From Nannochloropsis salina CCMP1776 (lineage: Eukaryota > Sar > Eustigmatophyceae > Eustigmatales > Monodopsidaceae), in NCBI GenBank assembly GCA_004565275.1, contig SDOX01000021.1, positions 730,230-794,229 of the forward strand: 64,000 bases of DNA, in the 5' to 3' direction. Below, piece after piece: positions 25,015 to 46,745 of the stretch. The notes beneath the pieces were generated by a model. That model had not been told where the DNA came from. It worked only from the letters and a program-made list of their open reading frames with translations, and did no database searches. A program made the translations under genes and the position numbers. Each line of letters opens with the position of its first letter. Position 1 is the first letter of the stretch.

Positions 25015-28000
25015 ATGTTCCGACGGAGAGGCAAGGAGGGAAGAAGGCCTGGCGTTAATGTGGGTGGCGCTGGCACCAAGAAGGAAAGCCATGCCGTGTC
25101 TGACCATAATGTGGTAAGTTTTCCTCGGTAAAGCTATCAAGGATGGCTCATTAGCGTATTGCGATAAATATTTGTTAAAATATCGTGTTATAGGTAGTAT
25201 CGTAACCTCGATGCATGCGCGACGATGATCATTTGTTCAGTGCAACTGGCATACATCTTTGTACGCTACATCACCCACCATCCTTGATGCAACATAGACT
25301 GCGGATGGTGACGACTTTTTTGGTTCCTCGGGGGTGTTACAAGAGTTTTTGTTGATTACACATCTATATTTCAACTTAATTTCTATCCGTCACTCCCTTC
25401 CTCCCTCATAATTTTGCTCGCTTAATATCAAAGGAATCTGTGCGGCTGCTTAGTCATGCAAAGTCTATGGCGGAAGAGAAGGGTGGACAGATATTTTCGA
25501 CGTGGATCGGAGACAAAAACGAAACGATCGACTTTTCGTACGAATACATATGGGATCGTTCTGGCGCCATCGCCTATCACTTAAATACAAAATATGGAAT
25601 CAAAAAGGGAGAGCGTGTAATTCTCTGCTATGGATTTGGCCTGGAATTCTTCGTGGCTTTTTTAGCCTGCCTGCGATTGGGCGTAGTGGCCGTGCCAGTT
25701 TATCCCCCAAATCCTACGAAACTCAAAATGTCGCTTGAAAAGCTTGAGCTGATTGTAACCAGTGCAGGGGCCACCCTCTGTCTTACAGACAACACCATAA
25801 ATTGGTTTCGAAAGGCCTCTCAGCTAAACGTACTTTCTTCGGCAAAATGGCCGAAAGGATTGAAGTGGGACTCTACAGATTCCATTCTGGCTAGTACGGG
25901 TACATCTTGCGACGAGCCCGGTTTGCATCCTAACGATATTGCCTTCTTACAGTATACAAGTGGATCTACTGGTGATCCCAAGGGTGTCATGATCACCTTT
26001 GGAAACTTGGATCACAACGTAAATGATCTCATTCTATTTTCGCTGCGCCGGGATATTTTTTGTAATCGCACGCGTACGTTGGAAAACATTGAGGTGCCTG
26101 TGGGGGTGAGCTGGCTGCCCCAGTATCATGACATGGGATTGATCGTGGGATTAATTATGCCGTTTGTAGGAGGCTTTCGTATGTATCACATGTCGCCAAT
26201 GACATTTGTTAAAAATCCGCTTATTTGGATTAAGACAATCTCCAATGTTGGTGCTCATTTCAGCACAGCCCCGAACTTTGCCTTGGGCCTTACAGCACGG
26301 CGGTGGAAAAGCCAGCGAAAAAAGGAAGCATTAGACCTAGGCACCCTTCAATTTATTCAATTGGGGGGAGAACCTGTAAGTGCGGAACACATAGCATCGT
26401 TTTCTTCCACGTTTGCCGGATACGGTTTACGACGCGATTGGGTAGGACCTGCCTATGGCCTTGCGGAGCATACTGTAGCGGTGTCGTACTGTACTGAGCT
26501 AGTAATGTGCAGTGAAATTGCAGGAGGTACCTTGGTGGCATGTGGCGCAGACTTTCGGGTGGACGTGCGGATCGTCGACCCGGAGTCGTTCGCCGAATGT
26601 CAAGAACGAGAGCAAGGGGAAATTTGGTTGTCAAGCCCCTCTTGTGCTGTGGGATATTGGGGCAGGGAAGATGCAACACAAGAAACGTTTAAAGCTCGTA
26701 TGTCTACACCAGACCGTCCTCCGATATTTGGGAACGGTGTCTATATGCGAACAGGTGACATGGGGTTTCTCGATAAAGATCACCTTTTTATATGCGGGCG
26801 CATCAAAGACCTCATCATCCTGAGAGGGAAGAATTACTACCCACAAGACATCGAAATGGTTGTTGAGAAGGCATCTGACCATGTGCGGCCAGGCTGCTTG
26901 GCCGCTTTTAGCTCGTCAATTGCGGACTTGGAGGAAGAGCAGGTCGAAATCGTGTTTGAATGGCGAGAAGTTAAGGGCGCCACAAGCTCGAAAAACATGA
27001 TGCATGAGGAATTAGACAAGATTTTTCGTGCAATTGTGAGCGAATGCGGCATCCGCGTTTACAGGATTGTCGCGATTCAGGACAGATCTATCCCAAAGAC
27101 GACCTCCGGAAAGATACGACGCCGTGCAACCCGAGATGCGTTGCATCAGAACGAATTGCGAGTAGTATTCGAATTGGCACTTGGGACTCATGAGGGTGAC
27201 AGAGACCTTCTGAAGCTTGCTTGTACTGGACAAGAGGCACTGAGTATAATCGAAGACGCAGTTTCACCTGGACTGACATTGGGCGGAAATTCCATTCCTT
27301 CGCAGCACGATGGAATTTCGTCACATGCCACGAGCCCGGAAGAGCAGCTTCGGGCGCAGCTGTTGCAAAACATACAGGAGAAGTTACTGCGTGTGATTTT
27401 GGAGACAGCGCTAGATGTCACAGGTCTAGATCATGTGGAAGTTGATTTTCCTTTGATGGATCTTGGCCTCGAGTCTATCCTGGCAATAGAGTTTCGTGAG
27501 AAGTTGTCAGCGAAATTAGGCGGCTTTGACCTTCCAGACACCATCATTTTTGACTACCCGACAATTCGTCAGATAGCTGAGTACATTATCAAAGAAATCT
27601 TCGGCAGTGGTTATCGAATCTATGGATCAGGTGGAACGTTGTCGGGACCTGATTTGAGTGATAGGATAGTTCATCACGTAGAAAATGAGCCATTAGCTGT
27701 TGTAGGCATAGCTTGTCGTACACCGGGAGGAATAGACGGCACGCACGCATTCTGGCGTATGCTCCTCGATGGTACTGATACCGTAACAGAAATTCCTAAG
27801 GAACGTTGGGACGTGGATGCATATTACCATCCGAATCCCGAACATCTTGGCACAATGTACACACGTGCAGGTGCATTTCTGGATGATATCGAAAGTTTTG
27901 ATGCCGAGTTTTTCGGCATTTCGGAGCCCGAGGCGCTATCAATGGACCCACAACAAAGGATTCTTCTGGAAACATCGTACTGTGCGCTCCATAATGCCGG

Positions 28001-31000
28001 ATACTCTCAGGAATCCCTTCTCGGGAAGGATATTGGCGTCTTTGTTGGTGTCTGTAGCACAGATTTCAGCCGCATTAAGCAATCACAAGTGGGGCCTTAT
28101 ACGGCAACGGGTGCGTCACAGTGTATCATTCCGAATCGTGTATCTTTTGCGCTTGGTTTGAAAGGCCCCAGCATGAGTATCGATACCGCTTGTTCGTCCT
28201 CTTCTGTGGCTGTGCATTTGGCGGCAAGATCGATTCAGAGCGGGCAGTCCTCGGTCGCCCTTGCCGCGGGCGTCAACCTCATCTTATTGCCAGATACGTA
28301 CATAGCCGTATGCCAAGGGCGAATGCTTGCAATTGATGGCCGCTGCAAAACTTTTGATGCCTCTGCGAACGGATATGTCCGAGGCGAGGGCTGTGGGGTT
28401 GTTGTTTTGAAGCGCTTGGCGGACGCGAAACGCGACAGAGATTCCATTTCATCTTTGCTGTTGGGCAGCGCGGTGAATCAAGACGGCCGTAGCGCTAGTC
28501 TTACGGCGCCTAATGGTCCTTCACAACAAGAAGTTATCCGTCGGGCACTGAGCGAGGCAAATTTGACTCCCTCGACCGTTGATTACATCGAAGCTCACGG
28601 TACAGGGACGGCGTTGGGCGATCCAATTGAAGTCGGTGCACTCAAAGCTGTATTTGGACCCGATCGACCACATAATCATCCCCTCTACATAGGCTCGATC
28701 AAGACCAACATAGGTCACCTGGAAGGATCAGCTGGCATAGTGGGATTCATCAAGGCAACTATGGTAGTTCAACATCGTTTGGTACCTCGTAACCTTCATT
28801 TTAAGGCTTTGAATCCAAGCATAACTCTGGGCTCATGTCCTTTTATTTTTCCAACGGAAAATGTCGATTTGCATAAATTGCATGGGGAATCAGCAGTTGC
28901 CGGCGTGAATTCTTTTGGATTTGGGGGCACAAACACTCACTTGGTTGTTAAGGGCTTGGATCCCACGGAAGATTCAGCGGATGCAAATGCCTTGATAAGA
29001 GATTTCCCGACGGACCGCGAAAGAGATCTGATAGCCTTTTTATTTACGGGCCAAGGTTCTCAGTATGTAGGCATGGGCAAAACGTTGTACGAATCAGAGC
29101 TTTCCTTTCGGAGAGTCATCGACCAATGCGACAGTTACCTGAAAAATATTTGGCCCTTTTCACTTGTTGAGCTCTTGTACGAAGGGAAGTCCGATATCAT
29201 GAAAAAGAAGCTTCAAGACACGTGCTACGCGCAACCTGCCCTTTTTGCGGTTGAGATGGCTTTGGCCGACCTCTGGAAAGAGTATGGGATTATTCCCGAT
29301 GTCGTAATGGGCCACAGTGCCGGAGAACTAGCCGCTGCGTGTGTTGCGGGCGTCTTTTCCTTGACAGATGGCTTACGGCTTGTAACTGAGCGAGGGGCGC
29401 TGATGCACTCAGTACCCAGAGATGATGGGGCAATGTTTGCATTACGAGCAACGGAAATAGACGTAAGAGACGCTATAATACAGGAAGTGCTTCATAGTGC
29501 GGAGAAGGAGAGTTGGCGCAATTTGGAAGTTGCTGCAGTCAACGGCCCACGAAGTGTCGTTATTTCAGGACCCAAAAAAATGGGAGAAGCTTTAATTAAG
29601 CGCATGAATGTTCAGGCGACTGAGTTGGACGTCTCGCACGCTTTCCATTCGAAGATGATGGAGGATGCGACATCAGCCTTGAAGTCTCTAGCAGACAGCA
29701 TCAACTTTTCATCACCAAGAATCCCCATTGTCTCTAACGTGACCGGTAAGTATGCAAGCGACGGAGATCTGACTACTGGGGAGTACTGGGTACGCCACAT
29801 GTTGCAGAGCGTCAAATTTTGGGACGGTATGCGCTCTTTACAAGATGCAAAGGTCAAAACCTTTATTGAAATTGGCCCAGAGCCACTTCTTACGGGCATG
29901 GGACGCCAGTGTGTCGATGATGCTAGAGAATGCCTATGGTTGCACTCTCTAGAGAAGAGCGGGGCGAGCGCTGTGATCGAACGCAGTCTTCGTAAATTGG
30001 GGAGCACTGTTCCTGCTGCTGCTAAGAACATTGGAGTTACCGACGAAGGGACTTGTAGAAATTTATTTGCAAGGAGACAAAGATTCAAATGGAGGAGTAA
30101 GGACTCTAAAAGCGATCTGAAGGATTTGCTTCATGAAGTCACTTGGGTTCCTATTTCGAGAGTTGACGAGTCACTTCTTTCTCAAGTTGCCATGGACATT
30201 TCTACTCTAATAATTGATTGGCCCGAGGTGAATGCTCAGTCATTCCCGGAGTGCGATGTCACATGGGTCAGGCACAAGACGTTGTCGCAATCCTGCTTGT
30301 CGCCATGGACTGGCCAAAGTAGACGAGAGATCAATCTTGATACTACAGATGATATTTTGCGCATTTTCAGTGAAAAAAAGTGGGATTCCGTGATTTTTGC
30401 AGGAGCTTTGCAAGCCTTTGGTGACAGCTACGAAAGAGCGGTTCGACGGCACGTTCTGAATGTAGCAAAGGCATTACTTCAGACTCCTGCTCATATGACG
30501 CCGAGCCAAGTGCTGCTTTTGACATGTCGTGCTTATCCCAGTGATTGTCTTGTCCGTAGAACCGGGGCGCGACAGGCGTGGATATCGGGATTCGTGAAGT
30601 CGCTTCGTGTTGAGCATTCAGAAATCAATGTGCAACAAATAGATCTCGAAAGAGACATACAGGATAGCTGCGATGAGGCGATAAGCATCAGAGAGCTACT
30701 CTTGCACCCAACGTCTTTCCCAAAAGATGAACCTGAGATAGCTATCCGTCATGGAAGATTGACTGTCCCGCGCCTTATTCCAAGTAGCATCAACATTTCT
30801 TGCACAATTCCACTCGACTTGCGAAATGACGCGACGTACGTGGTAACGGGGGGCCTGGGTGCGTTGGGGTTGGTCTTTGCCGAGCGTCTGCTTGAGGAGG
30901 GCGCCGAAAACGTAGTGTTGGTATCGCGTAGCGGGACATCGAGCGCGGGTGGCGAGGCAGCGTTGGAGAAGCTGCGACGGACACACGCGCGAGTGGAGGT

Positions 31001-34000
31001 GCTGAAATGCGACGTATCAGTGCGTGAGTCAGTGCGTGAGGCGTTCGAGACGTTGGCAGAGACGCTGCCGCCGGTGCGTGGCGTGATCCACTCGGCAGGC
31101 GTACTGGACGATGCGACGGTGGAGAATCAGACGGCGGAGAAGTTTGAGCGCGTGTTTTCGTCCAAGGTGGACGGTGCGTGGAACTTGCACGGAGTATGCG
31201 AGGACCTGGGCGTGGAGTTGGATTTCTTCGTGTTGTTTTCGTCGATATCGTCGTTGTTGGGGTCCCCTGGTCAGTCGAACTATGCGTCAGCGAATGCTGC
31301 GCTGGACGGGCTGGCACACTACCGTCGTGGACGGGGCTTGCCAGCCTTAAGCGTACAGTGGGGTCCGTGGGTGTCTGCAGGCATGGCGATGGAGAAAGAC
31401 ACTGTGAAGCGCCTGGAGGGCCAGGGTATAGGCGGTATCACGCCCGATATCGGGGTGTCGGCGCTCAGCAGTCTCATGTCGCACAAGGCTGGTTTGGCGC
31501 AGGCGGCGGTGATGCCGGTGTCATGGTCCAAGTTTGCAGCTCGTTCAGGCGGTCGTTTGCCTCCATTTTTCTCGCGTGTGGCGCGAACAGACATGTCTGC
31601 CGTAGGCGGTACGTCTGGTGGATCGGGCGGTGCGTTGGAGATGCTCCAGTCAATTGCTGCGTCGGACCGACTGCTATATTTGCAAGAGTTGGTGCTCGAG
31701 ACTGCGAGGGAGGTGTCCGGGAACGGAGAGCTGGATGGTGACGCGCCGTTGATGGAGTCAGGCTTGGACTCTTTGGCTCAGGTGGAGCTGCGCAATACTT
31801 TGTCGTCTCGGCTGCATGGTATGCAGCTGTCTGCGACGTTGTTTTTGGACTACCCCACGGTGAACGGAGTGGCGTCGTATTTGTTGCAGGAGATCATGCC
31901 GTCTCAAGGTGTGCGCGGCGGGTTGCAGCGTGTAGTGCTGTCGGCGGATGCGTCATCGGAAGGACTGGCGGTGGTGGGTATGGCGTGTCGGCTGCCCGGC
32001 GGGAGCGACAGTCCAGCGGCTTTTTGGGAGATGCTTGCGGAAGGTCGGGACGGCATTGTGGAAGTGCCGGCAAGCCGATGGGACGTGGACGAGGTATACG
32101 ACGCTAACCCTGACGCGGAGAACAAATGCTATGTGCGTCATGGTGGTTTCATCGATGATGTGGAGCTGTTTGATGCAGCGTTCTTCGGTATAGCAGGTCC
32201 AGAGGTAGCATCCATGGATCCACAGCAGCGGTTGTTGCTTGAGGTTGGGTATAAAGCGCTGCATGTTGCTGGAGAATCGAAGGCATCATTACTGCAGAGT
32301 TCCACTGGTGTTTTTGTAGGAATTGGGTCTTACGATTGGATTAAGCAACTAGGATATAGTAGCTGCGTGTATACGGGTACAGGGGCTTCATTTTCGATTG
32401 CTGCAAATCGGGTGTCGTATGTGCTCGGATTGAAAGGACCGAGCATGAGCATCGACACGGCGTGCTCGTCATCGTTGGTGGCGCTTGACGCGGCTTGTCA
32501 AACTTTGCACCGTGGTCGGTGCCTCTCCGCTGTGGTTGCGGGTGTGAATCTTATGCTTGATGCCTCTAGTACAGTAGTGTTATGCAGAGCACGCATGCTT
32601 TGTGCAGATGCCCGGTGCAAGACGTTTGATGCGAGCGCGAACGGCTATGTTCGTGGTGAGGGTTGCGGTGCAGTGGTGCTGAAGCGTTTGTCGGACGCAT
32701 CTGCGGCAGGCGATCGTGTGTTGGCAGTGGTGAGGGGGAGCGGAGTGAATCAAGACGGTCGCAGCGCGAGCTTGACGGCGCCGAATGGTCCATCGCAAGA
32801 AGAGGTAATCTTGACGGCCTTGCAAGAAGCGCAGGTCTCACCGCTGGACGTGGAGTACGTCGAGACGCATGGGACAGGCACAGCACTGGGTGACCCGATC
32901 GAAGTCGGGGCTTTGAAAGCTGTGTACGGGCTGGGGCGTAGTGAGGATCGACCGCTCGTGCTGGGCGCAGTGAAGACGAACATCGGGCATCTGGAAGCAG
33001 GTGCCGGGATGGCTGGTTTGTTGAAGGTTGTCTTGGTTTTGCTGCATCGTGAGGCGCCGGCTAATCTGCATTTGAAGAAGCTGAATCCCCACATCAATGT
33101 AGAGGGTTTCCCTGTGATCTTCCCGCATGAGGGAACGGGACTGGGAAGGTGGACGGGGGCGTCAGGCCGCGTTATGGCGGGTTTGAGCTCGTTTGGCTTT
33201 GGTGGTACGAACGCGCACGTGATAGTTGAAGAGTCGAGTCCTCACCTTGGCGAGACGTCTGTCGATGTTGTTTTGGAGTCGCAGAAGGCCCAGAGAAAGA
33301 AGGTAGCCTTTTTGTTTACAGGACAAGGCTCACAGTACATTGGAATGGGCAGAGCATTGTACGACACGGAGATGGCATTCAAGACTGCTATGACGGAATG
33401 CGATGTCATTTTGTCAAGCCTGTGGGGCCGGTCTTTGCTTTCTGTACTTTTTCCGGGAGTGTCGGACGATTCGTCGCTGATAAATGAGACCCTCTATGCG
33501 CAGCCGGCATTATTTGCGCTGGAGTACTCGCTAGCGATGCTTTGGAAATCAAGAGGTGTTGTTCCTGACGCCGTCCTAGGCCACAGCGCCGGAGAGTATG
33601 TAGCGGCATGCATTTGTGGTGCGTTGAGTCTGGAGGACGGGCTGTCCCTCATTGTAGAGCGCGCGCGTCTGATGCAGTCGCTGCCAAAGCACGATGGATG
33701 TATGATGGCGGTCCGAGCAAGTGAAAGTGTGGTGCTGCAGGGGTTGCAAGAAGTAGCGGGTATGGAAAATGTGTCCATTGCAGCCATAAATGGGCCTAAG
33801 AGCTTGGTGGTGTCCGGGCCTCGGGCTTCAGTGGAGACGTTGTTGGAGAAATTGCAGCTTGTGGGCAAAGCTTTGACTGTTTCTCATGCCTTCCATTCGC
33901 CTTTGATGGCTCCCGCGGCATCGCAGCTGGCAGGAGTGGTTGATAAGATGAGATGGGGCTCTCCCTCGATACCGCTTGTGACAAATGTGACAGGCCAAGT

Positions 34001-37000
34001 GGTAACAAATGCAGATTTGATGTCGGGCGAGCACTGGGGTCAGCATCTTGTGCGTGGAGTACGCTTTGCTGATGGTATGGAGGCATTGCATGGCCTGGGA
34101 TGTGAAATATTTGTCGAGATTGGACCCGAACCAACCTTGATCAAGATGGGTAGACAGTGCCTGGCCAGTTTCCGGAACCTCGTTTGGTTGGCGTCACTCG
34201 AGCGTAAGGAGGGTGATGTCTTCGCCAAGACTGCGGAAATCCTACTCCACGCATGCTGCACGAAAGAAGATGTCGAGACTCCTTCCGCCGTGGCAGAGCA
34301 AGGCTTGAAAGCATGTCTTAAACCCCTGTGTATCTATAAGAGGCAGCCATTTCCGTGGCATGAGATGCGGCACCCGCTGCTGCAAATGAAGTCCACGACA
34401 GCAGACGGTGTGGTAACATATCGAACAAAGTTGACCGGAAAAGTCTACAAGTTGTTGAAGGACCACCAGGTCTCGGGGGAAATGATCATTCCAGGCGCTG
34501 CATATCTTGAGACAGCAGCGGCTGCTGCGCGAGATTTGAGCAGCATTGTAAGTAAGGGCACGAAAAATGATGTAGTGGAAATTCGTGACGTCTTATTTGA
34601 AGCCCCTTTGATCGTCCATGACGAAGACGAAGCTGCATGGTTGAAATGCGTCGTACTTCCAAATGGGACGTGCGAGATACAGAAGACGATTGGAGAGGAG
34701 GAGGAAGCAACAACCACTAATAGCAGGATTCATCTTGAGCTCGTGCGTACATTGGAAAAACCAGCTGGCGGTGAACCGGTCGCAGATGTCCGTAGACGCT
34801 GCAACGATGAAATCGATGCATCGAAGATGTACGATATGTTACGAAAGTTGGGGCTAGAGTTCGGCCCACGGTTTCAAACCATCCAGCGCGTATATCGAGG
34901 CGACAAGGAAGCTGTGGGAGAATTGCAGATTGCGGCTGAGTCGGAGGCTTGGGAATCTGAATTCCATCTTCATCCCGGGGTGTTAGACGGTGCACTGCAG
35001 CTCGTGGCAGTAGCAACAAGCAGTCATAGCGAAGATGATGCGCCAAACGGGGACCCCTATCTTCCGTATTCGGTACGGCGTATGGTTGTCTACAAACCGA
35101 CGAGGGGGTGCATTTGGAGTCACGCCCGTGTGACAGGCCACGACAAGAAAGCGATAACCTGTGAGGTGGAGCTCACAAACAGCGAAGGGGACGTGGTGGC
35201 ACATTTGTACGACGTGATCTGTCGTCGCATGTCACGATCGGCCTCACAGCAACGTGTCGCAGCTCAATGTTTGTATGAGGTGCATTGGAGCCCCCTACGG
35301 GTCGACGACGCACCTGTTTCGCCTTTGGAGAGCGGAGGCGAGGGACTGAGCAAGTGGTTGGTCTTAGATCTTCCTGAATCTCTAGCGCCGACGATTTATG
35401 ACTCATTGAAGGCAAAAGATGCATCAATTAGTTTGTCTTGTGTGTGGCATCGGGAGGGAATCGAGGATGCCATGATAGCAGCAGAAGGCGAAAGCTATGC
35501 AGACTTGACTAATGCTGTGTGCTTGGGAAAAATGCTTTCCGCTGTCGATTGGTCCGGCGTATTGTACTGCGGGTTACTGTCGGAGGATAAAGGAGAGCGA
35601 TCGGAGCTGTTTGCACGTGTGCTGGCCTTGACTCATGGTGCACTGCGTATAGAAGAAAAGCCCCACCCTATGAATCTGTGGCTAGTAACTCAAGGGGCTC
35701 AAGACGTGGGAGGCGGCTGTCGTGAGTTGAAGCACACGTGCCAATCGTGGGTGTCAGGATATGCTAAAAGCGTGAAATTGGAGCACCCTGAGGCGGGAGT
35801 GGTGCATGTGGACTTGGACGCTGACATGGCGCCGGGAGCAGGGATAGCACAGCAACTTGCCGGCCTCCTTAGCGGTCAAACGAAGTTGCCGACGACAGAG
35901 GTGGAAGTTTGCGTACGGGATAAAGAGATTCGTGTGCCCCGTCTCATGCGAAGCAGCGTTCCATTTCGCGGTCCTTTTGAAGTTGATTTACCGGAGCGTG
36001 GTGCAATCAGCAACCTTAAACTCCAACAGGTGGCTGACCCGGGTCGTGATGAAAGTAGCGTACAAGAGGGCGAGATACTGGTCAGGGTTCGAGCGGTGGG
36101 ATTGAATTTCCGCGACGTGTTGAACGTCATGGGACTTTACCCCGGGGACCCTGGCCAGCCAGGATCCGACTGCTCAGGCACGGTTGTTGCAGTGGGGAAA
36201 AATGTGGATCACGTCAAAATTGGAGATGAAGTGTACGGCATGATGCCAGGCTGTCTCCGTATGTATGTGGCAGTGATGGCGGCGCTGGTGGAGGTGAAGC
36301 CCAAAAATTTGTCCTTTGAGGACGCAGCCTCTTTGCCGAGTATATTTTCGACGACAGAGGTAGCCTTGGGCCATTTCGCAAAGTTGTGCGCCGGCGAACG
36401 TGTATTGATTCATGCTGCGACGGGGGGTGTCGGCCTTGCTGCCGTGCAATATGCACACTCTGTAGGTGCCATAGTGTTCGCCACAGCCGGAAGGCAGGAG
36501 AAGCGCGATTACCTCCGGAGTTTGGGTGTACAGTACGTCACAAGCTCGCGAGACCCTGAGGAGTTTTTCAAAGACATGTCAAGCTTTTTGGCAGGAGGAT
36601 GTAAGCTCGATGTGGTATTGAACAGTCTTTCGGGCGACTTCATCAAGTATTCCGTTGATCTTCTAGGTCCTCAGGGCCGCTTCATGGAAATAGGCAAGCG
36701 CGATATATGGACACATGACGAAATGCAAGCAGCTCGTGCAGACGTGTACTACGAGACTATCGCGCTGGATGACATGATCACGAAAGACCCTCTGTGGTAC
36801 GGGCGATGTTTACAGAATTTGCGTGACAAAGCAGAGGCGGGTCTACTTCACGCCCCACCAATTCGTGTTTTTCAAATGGAGGATGAATACGTTGACGCCT
36901 TCAGGTACATGCAATTGGGACAACATATGGGAAAGGTGATTCTGTCTTTGCCCAGTAGCTACCACCTACATACGAATGCGACGTACGTGGTAACGGGGGG

Positions 37001-40000
37001 CCTGGGTGCGTTGGGGTTGGTCTTTGCCGAGCGTCTGCTTGAGGAGGGCGCCGAAAACGTAGTGTTGGTATCGCGTAGCGGGACATCGAGCGCGGGTGGC
37101 GAGGCAGCGTTGGAGAAGCTGCGACGGACACACGCGCGAGTGGAGGTGCTGAAATGCGACGTATCAGTGCGTGAGTCAGTGCGTGAGGCGTTCGAGACGT
37201 TGGCAGAGACGCTGCCGCCGGTGCGTGGCGTGATCCACTCGGCAGGCGTACTGGACGATGCGACGGTGGAGAATCAGACGGCGGAGAAGTTTGAGCGCGT
37301 GTTTTCGTCCAAGGTGGACGGTGCGTGGAACTTGCACGGAGTATGCGAGGACCTGGGCGTGGAGTTGGATTTCTTCGTGTTGTTTTCGTCGATATCGTCG
37401 TTGTTGGGGTCCCCTGGTCAGTCGAACTATGCGTCAGCGAATGCTGCGCTGGACGGGCTGGCACACTACCGTCGTGGACGGGGCTTGCCAGCCTTAAGCG
37501 TACAGTGGGGTCCGTGGGCGTTTTCCATTGATCGCATTTATCATAATGGTGTAGGCGGTATCACGCCCGATATCGGGGTGTCGGCGCTCAGCAGTCTCAT
37601 GTCGCACAAGGCTGGTTTGGCGCAGGCGGCGGTGATGCCGGTGTCATGGTCCAAGTTTGCAGCTCGTTCAGGCGGTCGTTTGCCTCCATTTTTCTCGCGT
37701 GTGGCGCGAACAGACATGTCTGCCGTAGGCGGTACGTCTGGTGGATCGGGCGGTGCGTTGGAGATGCTCCAGTCAATTGCTGCGTCGGACCGACTGCTAT
37801 ATTTGCAAGAGTTGGTGCTCGAGACTGCGAGGGAGGTGTCCGGGAACGGAGAGCTGGATGGTGACGCGCCGTTGATGGAGTCAGGCTTGGACTCTTTGGC
37901 TCAGGTGGAGCTGCGCAATACTTTGTCGTCTCGGCTGCATGGTATGCAGCTGTCTGCGACGTTGTTTTTGGACTACCCCACGGTGAACGGAGTGGCGTCG
38001 TATTTGTTGCAGGAGATCATGCCGTCTCAAGGTGTGCGCGGCGGGTTGCAGCGTGTAGTGCTGTCGGCGGATGCGTCATCGGAAGGACTGGCGGTGGTGG
38101 GTATGGCGTGTCGGCTGCCCGGCGGGAGCGACAGTCCAGCGGCTTTTTGGGAGATGCTTGCGGAAGGTCGGGACGGCATTGTGGAAGTGCCGGCAAGCCG
38201 ATGGGACGTGGACGAGGTATACGACGCTAACCCTGACGCGGAGAACAAATGCTATGTGCGTCATGGTGGTTTCATCGATGATGTGGAGCTGTTTGATGCA
38301 GCGTTCTTTGGAATCTCTAGGACTGAGGTAGCATCCATGGATCCACAGCAGCGGTTGTTGCTTGAGGTTGGGTATACTGCGTTATGGTCGGCAGGGTATG
38401 ATCGGAAAGATCTATTCTCGCGAAACGTTGGTATATTCGTTGGTATTGGTTCGAACGATTGGAGCAGCCTGATCACTCAAGCCACAGCATATACTGGAAC
38501 CGGGGCGGCTGCCTCGATCGCGGCAAACCGCCTTTCGTACGTGTTTGGACTGAAGGGACCAAGCATGAGCATTGACACGGCGTGCTCGTCATCATTGGTT
38601 TCGCTCGATGCTGCTTGTCTGAGGCTTCGAATAAATAAATGTGAAAGTGCGATTGTATTTGGGATAAATCTGTTATTGAGCCCCGCATCGCTTCTTGCGT
38701 TGTGCAGAGCACGCATGCTTTGTGCAGATGCCCGGTGCAAGACGTTTGATGCGAGCGCGAACGGCTATGTTCGCGGTGAGGGGTGCGGTGCGGTGGTGCT
38801 GAAGCGTTTGTCGGACGCATCTGCGGCAGGCGATCGTGTGTTGGCAGTGGTGAGGGGGAGTGCAGTGAATCAAGACGGTCGCAGCGCGAGCTTGACTGCG
38901 CCGAATGGTCCATCGCAAGAAGAGGTAATCTTGACGGCCTTGCAAGAAGCGCAGGTCTCACCGCTGGACGTGGAGTACGTCGAGACGCATGGGACAGGCA
39001 CAGCACTGGGTGACCCGATCGAAGTCGGGGCTTTGAAAGCTGTGTACGGGCTGGGGCGTAGTGAGGATCGACCGCTCGTGCTGGGCGCAGTGAAGACGAA
39101 CATCGGGCATCTGGAAGCAGGTGCCGGGATGGCTGGTTTGTTGAAGGTTGTCTTGGTTTTGCTGCATCGTGAGGTGCCGGCTAATCTGCATTTGAAGAAG
39201 CTGAATCCCCACATCAATGTAGAGGGTTTCCCTGTGATCTTCCCGCATGAGGGAACGGGACTGGGAAGGTGGACGGGGGCGTCAGGCCGCGTTATGGCGG
39301 GTTTGAGCTCGTTTGGCTTTGGTGGTACGAACGCGCACGTGATAGTTGAAGAGGCTGAGGTAGTGTTGAAGGATGGTTTGAGGCAGGTCGACGTGGTGTC
39401 AGAGCGACCGGCGGCGCTGTTCAACCGTCAGTCGTTCCCTTGGTCCATCCGTTCCGAGAATTCGTCCGATGAGATAGTGTTCGAGGTGGTGTGGGAGGAG
39501 GTGGCGACCTCTCCTGGCAGTAAGTCTGACGCGACGCTGTTTCTGGGCGTGACGGAGGGTTCGCGGGAGCAGCTACTCAGAATAAGCTCGGAGATGGCAT
39601 CGATGACATTGGTGGAGCAGTGTTCTTGTGAGCATCTGGAAGCCATGGACTGCACACGCGAGACTGTGCGGGAGTATCGTGCGGACCTGACCAATGCTGT
39701 GCACATGGCGGAGCTGACCAGCTTGGAGTCGTGGACAGCAGTCGTATTGTTACCAAGCGACAAGAGCATGATGATCCGACAAAGTTTGGCTTTGGTGAAG
39801 GGGGCATTGTCGCCGAGCGCAGGCAAGAGAAGCGTGTCATCGCTCTGGTTTGTGAGTGCAGGGGCATTACCGGTAGGCGAGGAAAGCGTGAAGGATGAGG
39901 CAAGCGCACGGCAATCGTGGTTGTCAGGTTTCGTGAAGACAGTAGGGATTGAGCACGCAGAGCTGGGTGTGCGGCATCTGGATGTACGATCCGATGACCT

Positions 40001-43000
40001 CGGGATGATTGACGATATAAGCCATTTGCTGGGCGGTGCTATGTCATTGCCGGAGAAGGAGATGGAAGTGGCTTTGCGCGGGAGTCGAGTTTACGTTCCT
40101 CGTTTGGTAGCGAGCAAGGAGCAGATCTCTGCTTCGGACCACGTAGGGGTAGTCAAAGGTGCGACGTACGTGGTAACGGGGGGCCTGGGTGCGTTGGGGT
40201 TGGTCTTTGCCGAGCGTCTGCTTGAGGAGGGCGCCGAAAACGTAGTGTTGGTATCGCGTAGCGGGACATCGAGCGCGGGTGGCGAGGCAGCGTTGGAGAA
40301 GCTGCGACGGACACACGCGCGAGTGGAGGTGCTGAAATGCGACGTATCAGTGCGTGAGTCAGTGCGTGAGGCGTTCGAGACGTTGGCAGAGACGCTGCCG
40401 CCGGTGCGTGGCGTGATCCACTCGGCAGGTGTACTGGACGATGCGACGGTGGAGAATCAGACGGCGGAGAAGTTTGAGCGCGTGTTTTCGTCCAAGGTGG
40501 ACGGTGCGTGGAACTTGCACGGAGTATGCGAGGACCTGGGCGTGGAGTTGGATTTCTTCGTGTTGTTTTCGTCGATATCGTCGTTGTTGGGGTCCCCTGG
40601 TCAGTCGAACTATGCGTCAGCGAATGCTGCGCTGGACGGGCTGGCACACTACCGTCGTGGACGGGGCTTGCCAGCCTTAAGCGTACAGTGGGGTCCGTGG
40701 GCGTTTTCCATTGATCGCATTTATCATAATGGTGTAGGCGGTATCACGCCCGATATCGGGGTGTCGGCGCTCAGCAGTCTCATGTCGCACAAGGCTGGTT
40801 TGGCGCAGGCGGCGGTGATGCCGGTGTCATGGTCCAAGTTTGCAGCTCGTTCAGGCGGTCGTTTGCCTCCATTTTTCTCGCGTGTGGCGCGAACAGACAT
40901 GTCTGCCGTAGGCGGTACGTCTGGTGGATCGGGCGGTGCGTTGGAGATGCTCCAGTCAATTGCTGCGTCGGACCGACTGCTATATTTGCAAGAGTTGGTG
41001 CTCGAGACTGCGAGGGAGGTGTCCGGGAACGGAGAGCTGGATGGTGACGCGCCGTTGATGGAGTCAGGCTTGGACTCTTTGGCTCAGGTGGAGCTGCGCA
41101 ATACTTTGTCGTCTCGGCTGCATGGTATGCAGCTGTCTGCGACGTTGTTTTTGGACTACCCCACGGTGAACGGAGTGGCGTCGTATTTGTTGCAGGAGAT
41201 CATGCCGTCTCAAGGTGTGCGCGGCGGGTTGCAGCGTGTAGTGCTGTCGGCGGATGCGTCATCGGAAGGACTGGCGGTGGTGGGTATGGCGTGTCGGCTG
41301 CCCGGCGGGAGCGACAGTCCAGCGGCTTTTTGGGAGATGCTTGCGGAAGGTCGGGACGGCATTGTGGAAGTGCCGGCAAGCCGATGGGACGTGGACAAGG
41401 TATACGACGCTAACCCTGACGCGGAGAACAAATGCTATGTGCGTCATGGTGGTTTCATCGATGATGTGGAGCTGTTTGATGCAGCGTTCTTTGGAATCTC
41501 TAGGACTGAGGTAGCATCCATGGATCCACAGCAGCGGTTGTTGCTCGATGTTACATATCAGGCGCTATTCGGGGCCGGAGAAAACAAGCGTACGCTCTTG
41601 GGAAGCTTGGCAGGTGTTTTTGTTGGTATTGGTTCGAACGATTGGAGTACCATGGTTCGAGGGGCAAGCGTTTTCACGGGAACAGGATGCTCTATGTCTA
41701 TGGCAGCAAACAGAGTGTCTTACGTCTTAGGCTTGAAGGGCCCAAGTGTCAGCATGGATACGGCGTGCTCCTCGTCACTGGTTGCTCTAGATACAGCTAG
41801 CGAGAAGCTGAGACACGGAAAATGCAATATGGCTATAGTGGCTGGAGTAAACCTTTTATTGAGCCCCACTGCTTTTGTTGCCCTCGCAAAAGCCCGCATG
41901 CTTTCAACCGATGGTAAATGCAAGTCATTCGATGCCAGCGCGAACGGCTATGGTAGGGGGGAGGGCTGCAGTGCAGTGGTGCTGAAGCGTTTGTCGGACG
42001 CAACTGCGGCAGGCGATCGTGTGTTGGCAGTGGTGAGGGGGAGCGGAGTGAATCAAGACGGTCGCAGCGCGAGCTTGACGGCGCCGAATGGTCCATCGCA
42101 AGAAGAGGTAATCTTGACGGCCTTGCAAGAAGCGCAGGTCTCACCGCTGGACGTGGAGTACGTCGAGACGCATGGAACAGGCACAGCACTGGGTGACCCG
42201 ATCGAAGTCGGGGCTTTGAAAGCTGTGTACGGGCTGGGGCGTAGTGAGGATCGACCGCTCGTGCTGGGCGCAGTGAAGACGAACATCGGGCATCTGGAAG
42301 CAGGTGCGGGCATCGCGAGTCTCGTAAAGGTTGTCTTGGTTTTGCTGCATCGTGAGGTGCCGGCTAATCTGCATTTGAAGAAGCTGAATCCCCACATCAA
42401 CGTAGAGGGTTTCCCTGTGATCTTCCCGCATGAGGGAACGGGACTGGGAAGGTGGACGGGGGCGTCAGGCCGCGTTATGGCGGGTTTGAGCTCGTTTGGC
42501 TTTGGTGGTACGAACGCGCACGTGATAGTTGAAGAGTCGAGTCCTCACCTTGGCGAGACGTCTGTCGATGTTGTTTTGGAGTCGCAGAAGGCCCAGAGAA
42601 AGAAGGTAGCCTTTTTGTTTACAGGACAAGGCTCACAGTACATTGGAATGGGCAGAGCATTGTACGACACGGAGATGGCATTCAAGACTGCTATGACGGA
42701 ATGCGATGTCATTTTGTCAAGCCTGTGGGGCCGGTCTTTGCTTTCTGTACTTTTTCCGGGAGTGTCGGACGATTCGTCGCTGATAAATGAGACCCTCTAT
42801 GCGCAGCCGGCATTATTTGCGCTGGAGTACTCGCTAGCGATGCTTTGGAAATCAAGAGGTGTTGTTCCTGACGCCGTCCTAGGCCACAGCGCCGGAGAGT
42901 ATGTAGCGGCATGCATTTGTGGTGCGTTGAGTCTGGAGGACGGGCTGTCCCTCATTGTAGAGCGCGCGCGTCTGATGCAGTCGCTGCCAAAGCACGATGG

Positions 43001-46000
43001 ATGTATGATGGCGGTCCGAGCAAGTGAAAGTGTGGTGCTGCAGGGGTTGCAAGAAGTAGCGGGTATGGAAAATGTGTCCATTGCAGCCATAAATGGGCCT
43101 AAGAGCTTGGTGGTGTCCGGGCCTCGGGCTTCAGTGGAGACGTTGTTGGAGAAATTGCAGCTTGTGGGCAAAGCTTTGACTGTTTCTCATGCCTTCCATT
43201 CGCCTTTGATGGCTCCCGCGGCATCGCAGCTGGCAGGAGTGGTTGATAAGATGAGATGGGGCTCTCCCTCGATACCGCTTGTGACAAATGTGACAGGCCA
43301 AGTGGTAACAAATGCAGATTTGATGTCGGGCGAGCACTGGGGTCAGCATCTTGTGCGTGGAGTACGCTTTGCTGATGGTATGGAGGCATTGCATGGCCTG
43401 GGATGTGAAATATTTGTCGAGATTGGACCCGAACCAACCTTGATCAAGATGGGTAGACAGTGCCTGGCCAGTTTCCGGAACCTCGTTTGGTTGGCGTCAC
43501 TCGAGCGTAAGGAGGGTGATGTCTTCGCCAAGACTGCGGAAATCCTACTCCACGCATGCTGCACGAAAGAAGATGTCGAGACTCATTCTAATGAGCTTCA
43601 AGACGGGTCATTATTGGATAACTTCCTCTATCCGTCCCTACATCTCTACAAGTACAATGCATTCAGCTGGCAGCGCCCGACGGACATGCTCGCGACAGAT
43701 TTTGGTTTGGGGGATACAGGAAAGTTTCTTCCAGACAATGGACGTGCGATAATGTTGACGCATGAGCATATTCGTAACGTGATCTTTACCTGCATCAAGG
43801 ACACGCTGAGTGATGTCCCCTCGTTGACGGATGATACCCTTCTTATGGACCTGCAGATGGACTCCATGGGCGCCGTATCCTTTGTAACAGACGTTTCTTC
43901 CCATCTCGAGGAAACTGGAATAAAATTGCCTCCCGACTTCATGTTTGTGCATCCAAGTATTGGTGAAATGATATCTGGCATTCTCAGTCTGGCAAGCACC
44001 ACGATGCAAAAAGATACTGGTGCAGACCTGAGAAGTCTTAAGGCGGACCTTTTACCTGTTCAAACCCACCGTCATCCTACGTCTGATTATCTAGAAAATT
44101 TGCCAACACAGCAGGGGTGCCCAAGCTCATGGCTCCTAACATTTTATTATTTTGTTGCGATGGGGTATGTCTCTGCAGTCATACTCTTTCCTGGGTGGCT
44201 GATCCTGAGCCGCAGCTTTCAATATGGTCTTCATCTCCCTGTCATACTTGGTGTGTTGGTGCTGGCACCTTGCGCAAAGCTCGTCTATGTGACCATTTTG
44301 CTTGGTTTGGTGATATTGAGTAAAAAGCTAATTTTGGGCAACATCAAGCCCAATGAACATTTCCCACTTGCAAGCGTCAAATTTGTGCAGTATTGGGCGG
44401 TCACAAGGCTGATGAGTTTTGCGAACATTTTGGTGCTTGGAGAACTGAAGCGGACATATTTGTTGAACACATATTACCGTTTAATGGGGTCACGGATCGG
44501 CCGAGACGTTCTTATTGACACCGTCGGGATCACTGACCCCGATATGGTAATCGTACACGATGGGACCGTCATTGGCAATGGGGTACTTCTACTTGGACAT
44601 ACGATCCATGACGGATTCATCACATTTGGCACGATTGCAATAGGTCAATCATGTACTATCGAGCCTCGAGCCATACTCAAACCGGAAGCTCGTGTCGATC
44701 ATTTTACCACAATACCTGCTTTGGCAAGTGTGGGGAGGAATCAGATGCAGTTTCAAGCGATTGGGAAAACGCCTCGCAGCGCTTCTTCAGATGCATCCGG
44801 CGCACACCCAGCCAAGAGCTTCTGGCGGGAAATGCTCGACAGTTTAGGGCACGTCGGAGGACTTTTTTTAACATACGCTCTGGCATCTTCGTCATTGCTA
44901 GTTGTCAACGCCATTGCTTCAGCCATGTCGGATAGCCGAAGCCAAGGTGGAATTATGTCGGCGTTGGCAACGCTTCAGCTAACGTCTGGGCTTTACCTTC
45001 CCTTTCTTCCTCTTTTCGTTGGAGTAGACCGCGACGGATTTGCTGAGGTCCTTATGATGGCGCTGACTAAGTATGACGTGATTGGAATTATTTGGATATT
45101 TCCAGCATTTTATCTGGGTTATTCTTGTGTATTGATAGCAGTTACTGCGCTTGTGAAATGGCTGCTTATAGGCAAGACGAAGCCTGGTACATCTATTGAC
45201 AAGGGACGGACTGCTTGGTGCAAATGGTTTTGTGACACATTGTTGGAGTACTCTTTCCGTCACACAGCGTCATTAACCTTGGGCACGTCATTTATCAATT
45301 TCTGGCTGTCTATACTAGGCGCCAAGATTGGGTGGCGAGCATGCATTCGCGTTTGTAATGGGATCCATGACATGCCTGATTCATATCGAGACCCAGAGCT
45401 TATCGATGTGGGTAAGGATGTGCACGTTGGCGACCGAGCAGCCCTCATCACAGGAGTCACTTGTCGTGCCACGGACGGAGAGAAACGAGGCAACGTGGAG
45501 ACGACATATGGAGTGATCAAAATAGGGGACCGCGCGCTCATTGGAATGGGCTCTGTGATACTTGAAGGGGCACGAATTCCTGCAGGGACGGGGGTGGGCG
45601 CGTTGTGCTGCGTAACATCAAAGGACTCGCTGAAAGAAGGCGCTATGCACATGGGCAATCCACGACCCCGCCCAATCTACCATATTTCCGCGGAGGGCTT
45701 ACAAGACCGAAACTTTTCAGCGATGGAGTGGTTTTGGTACTTCACGTTTCCCTTAATACAGCCATTGGTAATCACGGCGGTCATTTCTGTGGCCGGATTT
45801 TTCACGTGCCTTTTCAGCATGCTGAGTTTCTGGGAATACACTCCAGCAAGTACGCCATTAATGGTTGCGCCTTTCATATACATGATCCATGGATTTGTGC
45901 TTTGCATGATTGTCGTGTTGCTCAAATGGGCACTTTTAGGCCGCATGGTTCCCTCACAAAGGCATCGTACTTACGATTTGCACTACTACACCTGGAACAT

Positions 46001-46376
46001 GGTGCTAATGGTACAGAGCATCGTACACCTTCATTTTACCGAGCTACTGCGCGGCAGTCCATTTTACAACGTGTACTTCCGTTGGTTAGGAGTGCACATT
46101 GAACGGAATGTATTTTTGGAAGCAGTGTCCATCCCCGACGTGGATATGATTTTTCTAGGGGAGGGGAGTGTCGTAGAGCAAAATGTACTCTTGGGTGGGC
46201 ATAGCTACGAGGCGCCCTTTCTTTCCCGGAATCGCGTGCATATTGGAAAAAATTGTGTTGTCCGGCCTACTGCCGCGACATTACCTGAGTTCAGAATGGA
46301 AGATGGTTCAGAGCTTGATTGTCTTGAAGTGGGTCTGAAGGGCATGGTTGTCGGTCGGCGCGATAGCATTGACTGA
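25015..46376 (+). CDS. Giant FAAL-loaded modular type I polyketide synthase with a Pls-like membrane C-terminus
   Basis: A proposed 99-base exon 1 (25015-25113, ATG to GTAAGT) joins exon 2 (25434-46376) in phase 0, giving about 7,013 residues. The big exon has no internal stop or intron. Order: FAAL and ACP1; KS1-AT1-KR1-ACP2; KS2-AT2-DH-ER-KR2-ACP3; KS3-KR3-ACP4, which lacks an AT; KS4-AT4-ACP5; then a membrane and beta-helix tail. KS cysteines sit in DTACSSS at about residues 953, 2377, 4417 and 5478. All KS keep the HGTGT and NIGHLE histidines. Both AT types have GHSAG and HAFHS, which in known ATs indicates malonyl-CoA. The DH has HQVSGEMIIP (His about 3044), and the KRs keep LDD and NYASANAALD. 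By colinearity an acyl starter would gain four C2 units. Release is not by a thioesterase. Without exon 1, the first in-frame ATG is the one within the AKSMAEEK stretch. Product unknown. Confidence 0.93.
25434..27620 (+). other. PKS loading module: fatty acyl-AMP ligase plus ACP1
   Basis: The ATP-binding loop YTSGSTGDPKGVM is near residue 208. WLPQYHDMGLIVG and YGLAEHTVAVS follow, and GRIKDLIILRGKNYYPQDIE is near residue 488. The RGxNYYPQDIE form is the mark of fatty acyl-AMP ligases as opposed to acyl-CoA ligases. ACP1 (about 27370-27610) has LGLESILAIEF with the phosphopantetheine serine near residue 714. In the family such a didomain adenylates a free fatty acid and passes it straight to the carrier protein without CoA. 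Chain length cannot be read from sequence. Confidence 0.92.
27690..31900 (+). other. PKS module 1: KS1-AT1-KR1-ACP2
   Basis: KS1 (27690-28960) and AT1 (29030-29970; GHSAGE serine about residue 1328, HAFHSKMM) are clearly diverged from the corresponding domains of modules 2-4 and are of ordinary base composition. KR1 (about 30130-31560) and ACP2 (LMESGLDSLAQVEL, 31675-31900) belong to the homogenised repeat. The module has no DH or ER, so it should leave a beta-hydroxyl. KR1 keeps a longer lid loop (SAGMAMEKDTVKRLEGQG) than KR2 and KR3. Confidence 0.9.
30831..32185 (+). repeat. PKS internal repeat 1, copy A (KR1-ACP2-start of KS2)
   Basis: Begins GCGACGTACGTGGTAACG. It matches copies B and C almost base for base, including third codon positions, except for the KR lid loop where copy A is 24 bases longer. 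Confidence 0.95.
31965..38030 (+). other. PKS module 2: KS2-AT2-DH-ER-KR2-ACP3 (fully reducing)
   Basis: KS2 spans 31965-33233 and AT2 33290-34250. The DH (34360-35260) has the HxxxGxxxxP motif and FHLHPGVLDGALQL with the second catalytic aspartate. A KR structural subdomain follows (YEVHWSPL, from about 35270). The ER (36070-36950) has GLNFRDVLNVMG and an NADPH-binding region HAATGGVGLAAVQ. KR2 is 36978-37650 and ACP3 37800-38030. This is the only module with the full reductive loop, so it should give a saturated methylene pair. Confidence 0.92.
32668..34281 (+). repeat. PKS internal repeat 2, copy A (end of KS2 plus AT2)
   Basis: A 1,614-base block matched by 41971-43584. The first 566 bases (KS C-terminal half with HGTGT and NIGHLE) also match 38788-39353 in KS3. 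The AT part encodes the same protein as AT4. Confidence 0.95.
36978..38362 (+). repeat. PKS internal repeat 1, copy B (KR2-ACP3-start of KS3)
   Basis: Same length (1,385 bases) as copy C and nearly identical to it. It ends abruptly inside the KS at the GLLLEV position, where KS3 becomes unique. Confidence 0.95.
38085..41213 (+). other. PKS module 3: KS3-KR3-ACP4, no acyltransferase
   Basis: KS3 (38085-39353) is followed directly by a linker (NRQSFPWS) and the KR structural subdomain (IVFEVVWEEV at about 39475), then catalytic KR3 (40161-40830) and ACP4 (40980-41213). No GHSxG or HAFH motif occurs between KS3 and KR3, so no AT is encoded. Extender units would have to be supplied by AT2 or AT4 of the same chain or by a separate malonyltransferase. 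Expected outcome is a beta-hydroxyl. Confidence 0.9.
38788..39353 (+). repeat. PKS internal repeat 2, partial copy B (end of KS3 only)
   Basis: 566 bases, nearly identical to 32668-33233 and 41971-42536. The match stops right at the end of the KS, where modules 2 and 4 continue into an AT and module 3 does not. The resemblance to KS2 starts slightly earlier, near 38703. Confidence 0.93.
40161..41545 (+). repeat. PKS internal repeat 1, copy C (KR3-ACP4-start of KS4)
   Basis: Differs from copy B at only a few bases, for example one Glu-to-Lys change near 41396 and a silent change near 40429. It ends inside the KS at the same point as copy B. Confidence 0.95.
41265..44010 (+). other. PKS module 4: KS4-AT4-ACP5 (non-reducing)
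   Basis: KS4 spans 41265-42536, AT4 42590-43545 (protein identical to AT2) and ACP5 43770-44000 (LQMDSMGAVSF, serine about residue 6177). ACP5 is unlike ACP2-4 and outside the repeat. No KR, DH or ER follows, so the last condensation should leave a beta-keto thioester. It feeds the terminal membrane domain. Confidence 0.9.
41971..43584 (+). repeat. PKS internal repeat 2, copy C (end of KS4 plus AT4)
   Basis: 1,614 bases matching 32668-34281. The only visible cluster of differences is near 42307-42330, where KS4 has GIASLVKV instead of GMAGLLKV. The match stops just after the AT at the codons for EDVET. Confidence 0.95.
44115..46376 (+). other. C-terminal membrane plus left-handed beta-helix domain, resembling the Pls tail
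   Basis: Three hydrophobic blocks alternate with three soluble blocks. The hydrophobic blocks are 44130-44335 (FYYFVAMGYVSAVILF, PVILGVLVLAPCAKLVY), 44860-45170 (YALASSSLLVVNAIASAM, PAFYLGYSCVLIAVTALV) and 45730-45940 (FTFPLIQPLVITAVISVAGF, IYMIHGFVLCMIVVLLKW). The soluble blocks have hexapeptide-repeat character: 44480-44740 (IGRDVLIDTVG, GTVIGNGVLLLGH), 45290-45640 (ARIPAGTGVGAL) and 46060-46340 (IERNVFLEAVSIPDVDMIFL, GSVVEQNVLLGGH). This order of transmembrane pairs and tandem domains is that of the C-terminal region of epsilon-poly-L-lysine synthetase (the 'NRPS terminal domain of unknown function' family). There it follows a carrier domain and forms the amide bonds. A release or transfer role at a membrane is inferred. 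Confidence 0.82.
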
Positions 46377-46745
46377 TTTTCAGAACCTGAGTCCACTTTT
46401 TAAAAATCGAAGACAGGAGCAGTCCCCTCACCAAAAATATGAGGGATGAACAGAAACGAGCAAGTGCTTCTCCAGATGTATGTGAGTTCACTTCTGCGAC
46501 CTTTTTATGTGGTGTATCTTAGTTTTAGTAATAGAAATCGGTATATCGAGTTGATAATATTTACGTATATATGTAATACATAAATAATTATATATATATA
46601 TATATATATATGCATGCATACATGCAAAGAAATATGTTTTTTGAAACGAAAAGTTTAGTCGAACGTGCAAAAGTAATATAACGCGGAAAAAGTGAACAAG
46701 TCCTTGAGTCTACTTGCAAAGAAAATTCTTTTTTGATACTGCATA
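46377..46745. other. Convergent 3' flanks of the PKS and the MORN gene, with a TA microsatellite
   Basis: This 370-base stretch between the two stop codons is A+T-rich. It contains an uninterrupted TA run of about 11 units at 46589-46611, followed by ATGCATGCATACATGC. No gene is visible. Confidence 0.7.

Follow-up and report, generated by a model that had tools for sequence, protein, structure and literature searches.

Terminal membrane domains of the kind considered here are known from the bacterial Pls and PosA synthetases, in which three transmembrane (TM) pairs and three beta-helix blocks directly follow a carrier domain and the third block carries a histidine. These enzymes are loaded with an amino acid by an adenylation (A) domain, have one carrier and no polyketide synthase (PKS) modules, and occupy frames of about 1300-1500 aa; the tails tested from them score above the curated cut-off of their family. 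A second point of comparison is offered by LpxA and LpxD, beta-helix enzymes that transfer acyl groups from acyl carrier protein (ACP) to O or N acceptors and share profile similarity with the tail described below; they are soluble homotrimers that use free ACP and have neither membrane helices nor a fused PKS. We have analyzed a 64,000-nucleotide stretch of the Nannochloropsis salina CCMP1776 genome (contig SDOX01000021.1, positions 730,230 to 794,229; hereafter the window), in which one long frame encodes a PKS with a fatty acyl-AMP ligase (FAAL)-like loading domain at one end and a relative of the Pls/PosA tail at the other. We propose that this enzyme is probably, though far from certainly, a FAAL-loaded type I modular PKS with cis-acting acyltransferase (AT) domains, in which a divergent Pls-type membrane tail serves as the release domain and transfers the acyl chain to an outside acceptor.

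A preliminary description of the window had traced tails of this type to poly-lysine synthetase and to some bacterial nonribosomal peptide synthetases, and the same type has already been described in a eukaryote as well. Epls of Epichloe festucae is an A-T-tail enzyme that makes poly-lysine and is described as 51% identical to a Streptomyces Pls; like the window protein it is a eukaryotic protein with this tail, but according to the accessible part of the report it has no FAAL and no ketosynthase (KS) (PMC7179176). A eukaryotic PKS that passes its product to an external acceptor through a fused acyltransferase has likewise been described, the fungal highly reducing enzyme LtbA, whose C-terminal carnitine acyltransferase transfers the product to a polyol; it belongs to a different acyltransferase family, however, and the available part of that source mentions neither a membrane tail nor a FAAL (PMC10901484). 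Giant multimodular type I PKSs occur in chromerids and algae, with module duplication described for the algae (PMC4501334, PMC4661987, PMC7073580), and some algal PKSs carry N-terminal AMP-ligase domains (PMC4661987); unlike the window protein, none is credited with a Pls-type tail in the portions of these reports available to us (PMC4501334, PMC4661987, PMC7073580). Among the literature matches listed, which cover few subscription journals, we found no PKS with a Pls-type tail, and to this extent the pairing of a FAAL-loaded PKS with such a tail stands as undescribed, as first suggested. Because this survey reached top-ranked papers only, from few subscription journals, it is weak evidence of novelty.

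Pfam and motif searches of the frame give the domain order FAAL-ACP-[KS-AT-KR-ACP]-[KS-AT-DH-ER-KR-ACP]-[KS-KR-ACP]-[KS-AT-ACP]-tail (Table 1), and the Pfam families found are AMP-binding, carrier (PP-binding), KS, AT, DH, ER and KR. A short first exon is likely joined in phase to the long second one by a GTAAGT/AG intron, and the spliced synthase would be about 7013 aa. The start at 25015 that had been assigned to the gene holds provided that this predicted intron is spliced; donor, acceptor and frames all fit.

Table 1. Features of the synthase gene and its neighbors, in window coordinates.
Feature	Coordinates	Strand	Evidence or remark
NodU-type carbamoyltransferase, three exon-like pieces	16932-19765	+	Upstream of PKS
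Probable exon 1, 33 codons, MFRRR...HNV	25015..25113	+	ATG 25015; GTAAGT donor 25114; phase matches exon 2
Predicted intron	25114-25433	+	GTAAGT donor at 25114; AG acceptor at 25432-25433
Stop-to-stop open frame	25380-46376	+	6998 residues plus stop; exon 2 within
Exon 2, one open frame	25434..46376	+	Stop 46374-46376
FAAL-like loading domain	25518..27155	+	Pfam AMP-binding; nearest NCBIfam models; PDB relatives
Loading ACP, motif GLES	27393..27587	+	Pfam PP-binding, motif
Module 1, KS-AT-KR-ACP	27687..31880	+	Pfam, motifs; KR 30831-31370
Module 2, KS-AT-DH-ER-KR-ACP, fully reducing	31965..38006	+	Pfam, motifs; DH 34371-35249, ER about 36066-36707, KR 36978-37520, ACP 37815-38006
Module 3, KS-KR-ACP, without AT	38088..41189	+	Pfam, motifs
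Module 4, KS-AT-ACP, without reducing domain	41271..43980	+	Pfam, motifs; last ACP motif QMDS at 43854; ACP end estimated
Tail, 753 residues	44115-46373	+	Open to stop
Tail block 1, TM pair + beta-helix, C1-like	44115..44789	+	TIGR02353 positions 38-197, 83.5 bits
Tail block 2, TM pair + beta-helix, atypical	44790..45689	+	TIGR02353 positions 50-209, 56.3 bits
Tail block 3, TM pair + beta-helix, C3-like	45690..46373	+	TIGR02353 positions 490-681, 82.5 bits
Conserved His H696 to Glu E699 in GGHSYEA	46200..46211	+	Alignment to bacterial QTHLYED
Convergent MORN gene	nearest piece starts 46749	-	About 370 bases (46377-46748) past synthase stop

The proposal that the protein opens with a didomain for loading free fatty acids is supported by the nearest profiles and solved relatives of its first domain, which is followed by an ACP. 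Among NCBIfam models a fatty-acid--AMP ligase ranks first (6e-100), compared with 1.5e-82 for the top CoA-ligase model; the domain stays under the model's own cut-off in all 25 models listed (e.g., 335.2 vs 775), and the fatty-acid--AMP ligase models among them represent bacterial subfamilies and equivalogs rather than the whole FAAL family. At E <= 1e-20, 18 PDB rows were matched, six of them named as fatty-acid AMP or adenylate ligases. The top four (1e-89 for the best) bear the name Polyketide synthase or, in the fourth row, Saframycin Mx1 synthetase B, and we take these to be FAAL structures. By both databases the domain is nearer to fatty acyl-AMP ligases than to CoA ligases or amino-acid A domains.

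In the modules, KS Cys and His, AT GHSxG, KR and ACP Ser follow one another in the order of a cis-AT type I modular PKS, with module 3 lacking an AT. A motif scan of the frame recovered four KS Cys (DTACSS) and four KS His (HGTGT) motifs, three KR motifs (GGLGALG), five carrier Ser motifs and just three AT motifs (GHSAGE), all accompanied by HAFH, which presumably marks them as malonyl type; the core motifs searched for are intact throughout.

About 45 codons separate the last ACP from the tail, which continues the same frame. As proposed in the preliminary description, it matches the Pls/PosA terminal domain TIGR02353 (E=9.4e-60, 202.7 bits, in three stretches), and this model came top in NCBIfam for each of the three blocks into which we cut the tail for separate scoring. 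A weak match to TIGR02353 is meaningless alone, since the model also fires in 13 of 14 control genomes (above cut-off in one) and on ordinary hexapeptide proteins, which reached 19.5-28.7 bits over 53-100 positions in four genomes or records. Scored with a profile that was made from bacterial tails only, 26 in number, the window blocks reached 55.6, 45.6 and 52.8 bits, and the top of 200 shuffles was a 2.1-bit domain. When plasmids were searched with the tail by tblastn, 61 records matched, and in 27 of these a single place accounts for at least 80% of its length. Of the 40 rows listed, 15 carry the annotation Pls/PosA or Pls; the lowest E listed is 3e-31, and identity is about 22%. Pfam returned only Hexapep, slightly above its threshold (27.4 bits, cut-off 27), and Hexapep_2, below it (16.4, cut-off 27), which rejects an unrelated membrane acyltransferase such as MBOAT or Acyltransf_3, an alternative named in the preliminary description as one that would overturn its claim. 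By these profile comparisons the tail is a homologue of the Pls/PosA terminal domain.

Hydropathy analysis flagged seven rows in the tail, or six once two overlapping ones are merged, and these form three pairs; the same threshold flags 11 further rows elsewhere in the frame, so that hydropathy alone proves little. Two AlphaFold models of the tail, built with 27 and 25 sequences, each contain long helices, in three pairs, together with three beta-helices, consistent with the three TM and three hexapeptide blocks originally described. The same layout of six TM helices and three beta-helices is given for a PosA model in the accessible part of a published study (PMC10522769). A profile of the tail searched against PDB sequences reaches LpxA and LpxD among the best 60 of 113 rows, and in Foldseek searches of the PDB the best rows for the models are hexapeptide proteins, serine acetyltransferases among them.

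Several observations weigh against the role proposed here for the tail. Its 202.7 bits are less than half the curated TIGR02353 cut-off of 423.1, which bacterial tails exceed with 587.3 bits (L015) and 740.4 bits (L003, Skermanella mucosa), and it shares only 19-23% identity with the tails of bacteria. Among solved structures, its nearest relatives in sequence are gamma-carbonic-anhydrase-like, albeit for block 2 only: at E <= 0.1, 21 gamma-carbonic-anhydrase-like and other hexapeptide proteins were matched, all on that block. AlphaFold confidence is modest (mean pLDDT 58.9 and 63.0, pTM 0.63 and 0.64), the Foldseek TM-scores by query are just 0.05-0.14 over the best 50 rows of each model, and no solved Pls tail was present among the PDB matches listed from sequence, profile or Foldseek searches. 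A one-to-one correspondence of the blocks with the bacterial C1, C2 and C3 is suggested for blocks 1 and 3 but doubtful for block 2. Block 2 does not behave like C2 and aligns to the same region of TIGR02353 as block 1, and all three blocks favored the first block of the 26-tail profile. The C1 profile ranked blocks 1, 3 and 2 (63.8, 60.9 and 50.1 bits), the C2 profile blocks 1, 2 and 3 (47.2, 36.8 and 24.6 bits), placing block 1 over block 2, and the C3 profile blocks 3, 1 and 2 (52.7, 50.5 and 18.0 bits). In a block tree, block 2 groups weakly with C2, and blocks 1 and 3 pair up beside C3; we do not rely on it because it is weak and long branches meet. Blocks 1 and 3 are closer to each other (26% over 155 aa) than either is to block 2. 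Block 1 has a histidine of its own, in LLGHTIHD (block 1 at 44589-44612, compared with block 3 at 46194-46214), at a column without His in the aligned bacterial C1 blocks.

Residue conservation was assessed with 31 bacterial rows that were usable, 24 of them genome loci and 7 plasmid proteins, numbering residues by their position in the window tail. The block-3 histidine H696 is present in the window and in 31/31 rows, and E699 in the window and in 29/31, the other two being Streptomyces rows with His at that position. Further points on the negative side are that the window keeps only 34 of the 83 columns that are at least 93% conserved in bacteria, 26 of these 34 being Gly, Pro or Trp, and that in block 3 the bacterial D, R, N, Q and E are replaced by A700, P701, E688, G694 and M744, respectively. 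The conserved D and R of EDR and E of KGE are thus not kept, and the bacterial C-terminal end is missing. Because conserved block-3 polar residues have been replaced, the activity of the tail may be changed or lost. The homology to Pls stands, but the amide chemistry of the bacterial enzymes cannot be assumed for this tail, since the score is below the curated cut-off and conserved polar residues are lost. Judged by its score, its changed columns, and the scaffold and His that it keeps, the tail is a homologue that preserves the scaffold and one obvious general base and lies outside the curated Pls equivalog.

Nor is the whole protein a standard Pls synthetase: the tail is below the TIGR02353 cut-off, and the Pls/PosA layout of an amino-acid A domain and one carrier is replaced by a FAAL-like domain and four PKS modules. 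To place this architecture, we scanned 398 genomes from the phylum of an Azospirillum genome that was itself included, having been chosen for its tail, and scored at most two candidates per genome. Matches at E <= 1e-5 occurred in 37/398 genomes. In 27 of them the frame carrying the tail is 1303-1480 aa long, with an additional match on a 495-aa frame in one genome, and the remaining 10 gave small hexapeptide proteins only (175-249 aa); a tail on a PKS-size frame was found in none of the 398. In a second set, we used the best 80 of at least 575 confirmed tail matches on genome contigs, which are biased to Alphaproteobacteria because all are matches to an Azospirillum query. Of these best 80 loci, 75 have complete frames, 677 aa long in one case and 1333-1503 aa in the others; 74/80 have an A-domain core motif in frame and 0/80 an in-frame KS motif. 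Bacterial fusions of a PKS to the tail were thus absent from the 398 genomes of one phylum, the best 80 of at least 575 loci and the 7 of 61 plasmid records examined. Viral relatives or a viral origin can be set aside: a scan of viral contigs with the tail alone gave no confirmed match, and Foldseek against viral structures gave nothing at E <= 0.001. Among 50,697 phage records 3 matched the tail, and two filed as Acinetobacter phage (CAKLQH020000021.1 and CAKLQF020000019.1) have a Pls/PosA-like tail stretch under a gene annotated EntF; they are possibly host DNA. The Pls-type synthetase of Skermanella mucosa (L003 1603-7145) adjoins ectB, encoding diaminobutyrate transaminase, hinting that this enzyme makes a diaminobutyrate polymer.

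In the mechanism we envision, which assumes colinearity, the FAAL would adenylate a free fatty acid and load it onto the first ACP. Module 1 would extend the chain by C2 and leave a hydroxyl, and module 2 would add a further, fully reduced C2 unit. Since module 3 lacks an AT, it would either receive malonyl from a neighboring AT, in which case a second hydroxyl would be left, or be skipped. Module 4 would leave a keto group, so that the predicted product is a 5-hydroxy-3-oxo acyl-ACP with another hydroxyl further up the chain. LpxA and LpxD, which use acyl-ACP, build their beta-helix trimer from three subunits; the three beta-helices of the single window chain may form an equivalent pseudo-trimer on six membrane helices. 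The conserved block-3 His could then act as general base in transferring the acyl group carried by the last ACP onto an acceptor amine or hydroxyl at the membrane, and the released product would be an N-acyl or O-acyl lipid. For the acceptor we infer an amine or alcohol, and for the product a wall component or lipid. The release function is assigned to the tail because the frame holds no other release domain, Pfam having found neither a thioesterase nor a reductase in it, and because there is little room downstream. A thioesterase in a missed exon, raised earlier as a possible objection, is unlikely with only about 370 bases (46377-46748) before the convergent MORN gene, not every short plus-strand fragment having been scanned with Pfam.

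It is also possible, if rather unlikely, that the tail is a non-catalytic membrane anchor and that the product leaves by spontaneous lactonization or through a separate thioesterase. Ring closure of a 5-hydroxy-3-oxo thioester can give a dihydropyranone, so the product predicted here from the domains would suit lactonization, and the strong divergence of the tail, with its missing C-terminal end and several altered polar residues in block 3, also fits a structural role. Three beta-helices, however, are unnecessary for a plain anchor, and the retention of the block-3 His and Glu and of 26 Gly, Pro or Trp positions, in a tail whose 753 residues all remain open frame, argues against this reading. 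It seems very improbable indeed that the tail belongs to another gene beside the PKS, or was joined to it in assembly. Long exact repeats within the frame can mislead assembly, but a single stop-free frame runs from 25380 to 46376 and no exact repeat of at least 40 bases extends past 43584, which puts the whole stretch from the last ACP through the linker to the end of the tail outside the repeats; moreover, the aligned bacterial proteins also have their carrier directly N-terminal of the tail.

A different possibility, which we consider doubtful, is that the tail works iteratively, as in Pls, and ester-links hydroxy-acyl chains into an oligomer or wall polymer. Pls and PosA tails help to polymerize their own monomer, according to the part of that study available (PMC10522769), and long-chain diols and alkenols are regarded as building blocks of wall polymers in certain algae, according to the accessible part of another (PMC8511707). 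The two hydroxyls predicted from modules 1 and 3, which have KR and no DH, could supply the nucleophiles. Against this, nothing ties the synthase gene to a polymer, and residues conserved in bacterial tails are altered. In a speculative and equally doubtful extension, the protein would be a single-chain lipid polymer synthase, its FAAL-PKS portion building a hydroxylated long-chain acyl unit and its tail repeatedly joining such units or extending a membrane-held primer. If so, the polymerization logic of poly-lysine synthetase would have shifted from amino acids to polyketide lipids, and one enzyme would make a polyester or conjugated wall lipid. Release by a single acyl transfer to an outside acceptor remains the reading that we favor.

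The module DNA has a history of its own. Near-exact sequence occurs in three copies (30831-31371 / 36978-37518 / 40161-40701 and 31429-33233 / 37552-39353 / 40735-42536) and in two (33099-34281 / 42402-43584). From KR through ACP to the start of KS the three copies differ by single bases across hundreds of bases, and a stretch of 1183 bases is the same in AT2 and AT4; the KS core near the active Cys (at about 32256-32582 and in the partner copies) has only about 49% DNA identity, with third codon positions at 26-32%. The pattern resembles recurrent gene conversion, or swapping, from which the KS substrate region was spared. Module 3 lacks an AT despite being largely a near-exact copy of other modules. 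Upstream of the synthase, a gene encodes a carbamoyltransferase of the NodU type, a natural-product tailoring type; the interval between it and the PKS holds further reading frames, part of them on the minus strand. The window also encodes an elongation-factor GTPase, an ARF-type GTPase, importin-like HEAT/TPR repeats, WD40 and MORN families and a Myb-like domain (below cut-off); genes split in several pieces and family content of this kind show it to belong to a eukaryotic genome. Rfam and tRNA searches of the window were empty.

If release by the tail is correct, the Pls domain would be a more general carrier-protein-dependent membrane acyltransferase, extending beyond the synthetases of amino-acid homopolymers, and giant eukaryotic PKSs would have a further type of release beside thioesterases, reductases and the carnitine-type acyltransferase of fungi. 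The synthase is in addition a single gene whose loss would probe the source of membrane-delivered hydroxy or keto lipids.

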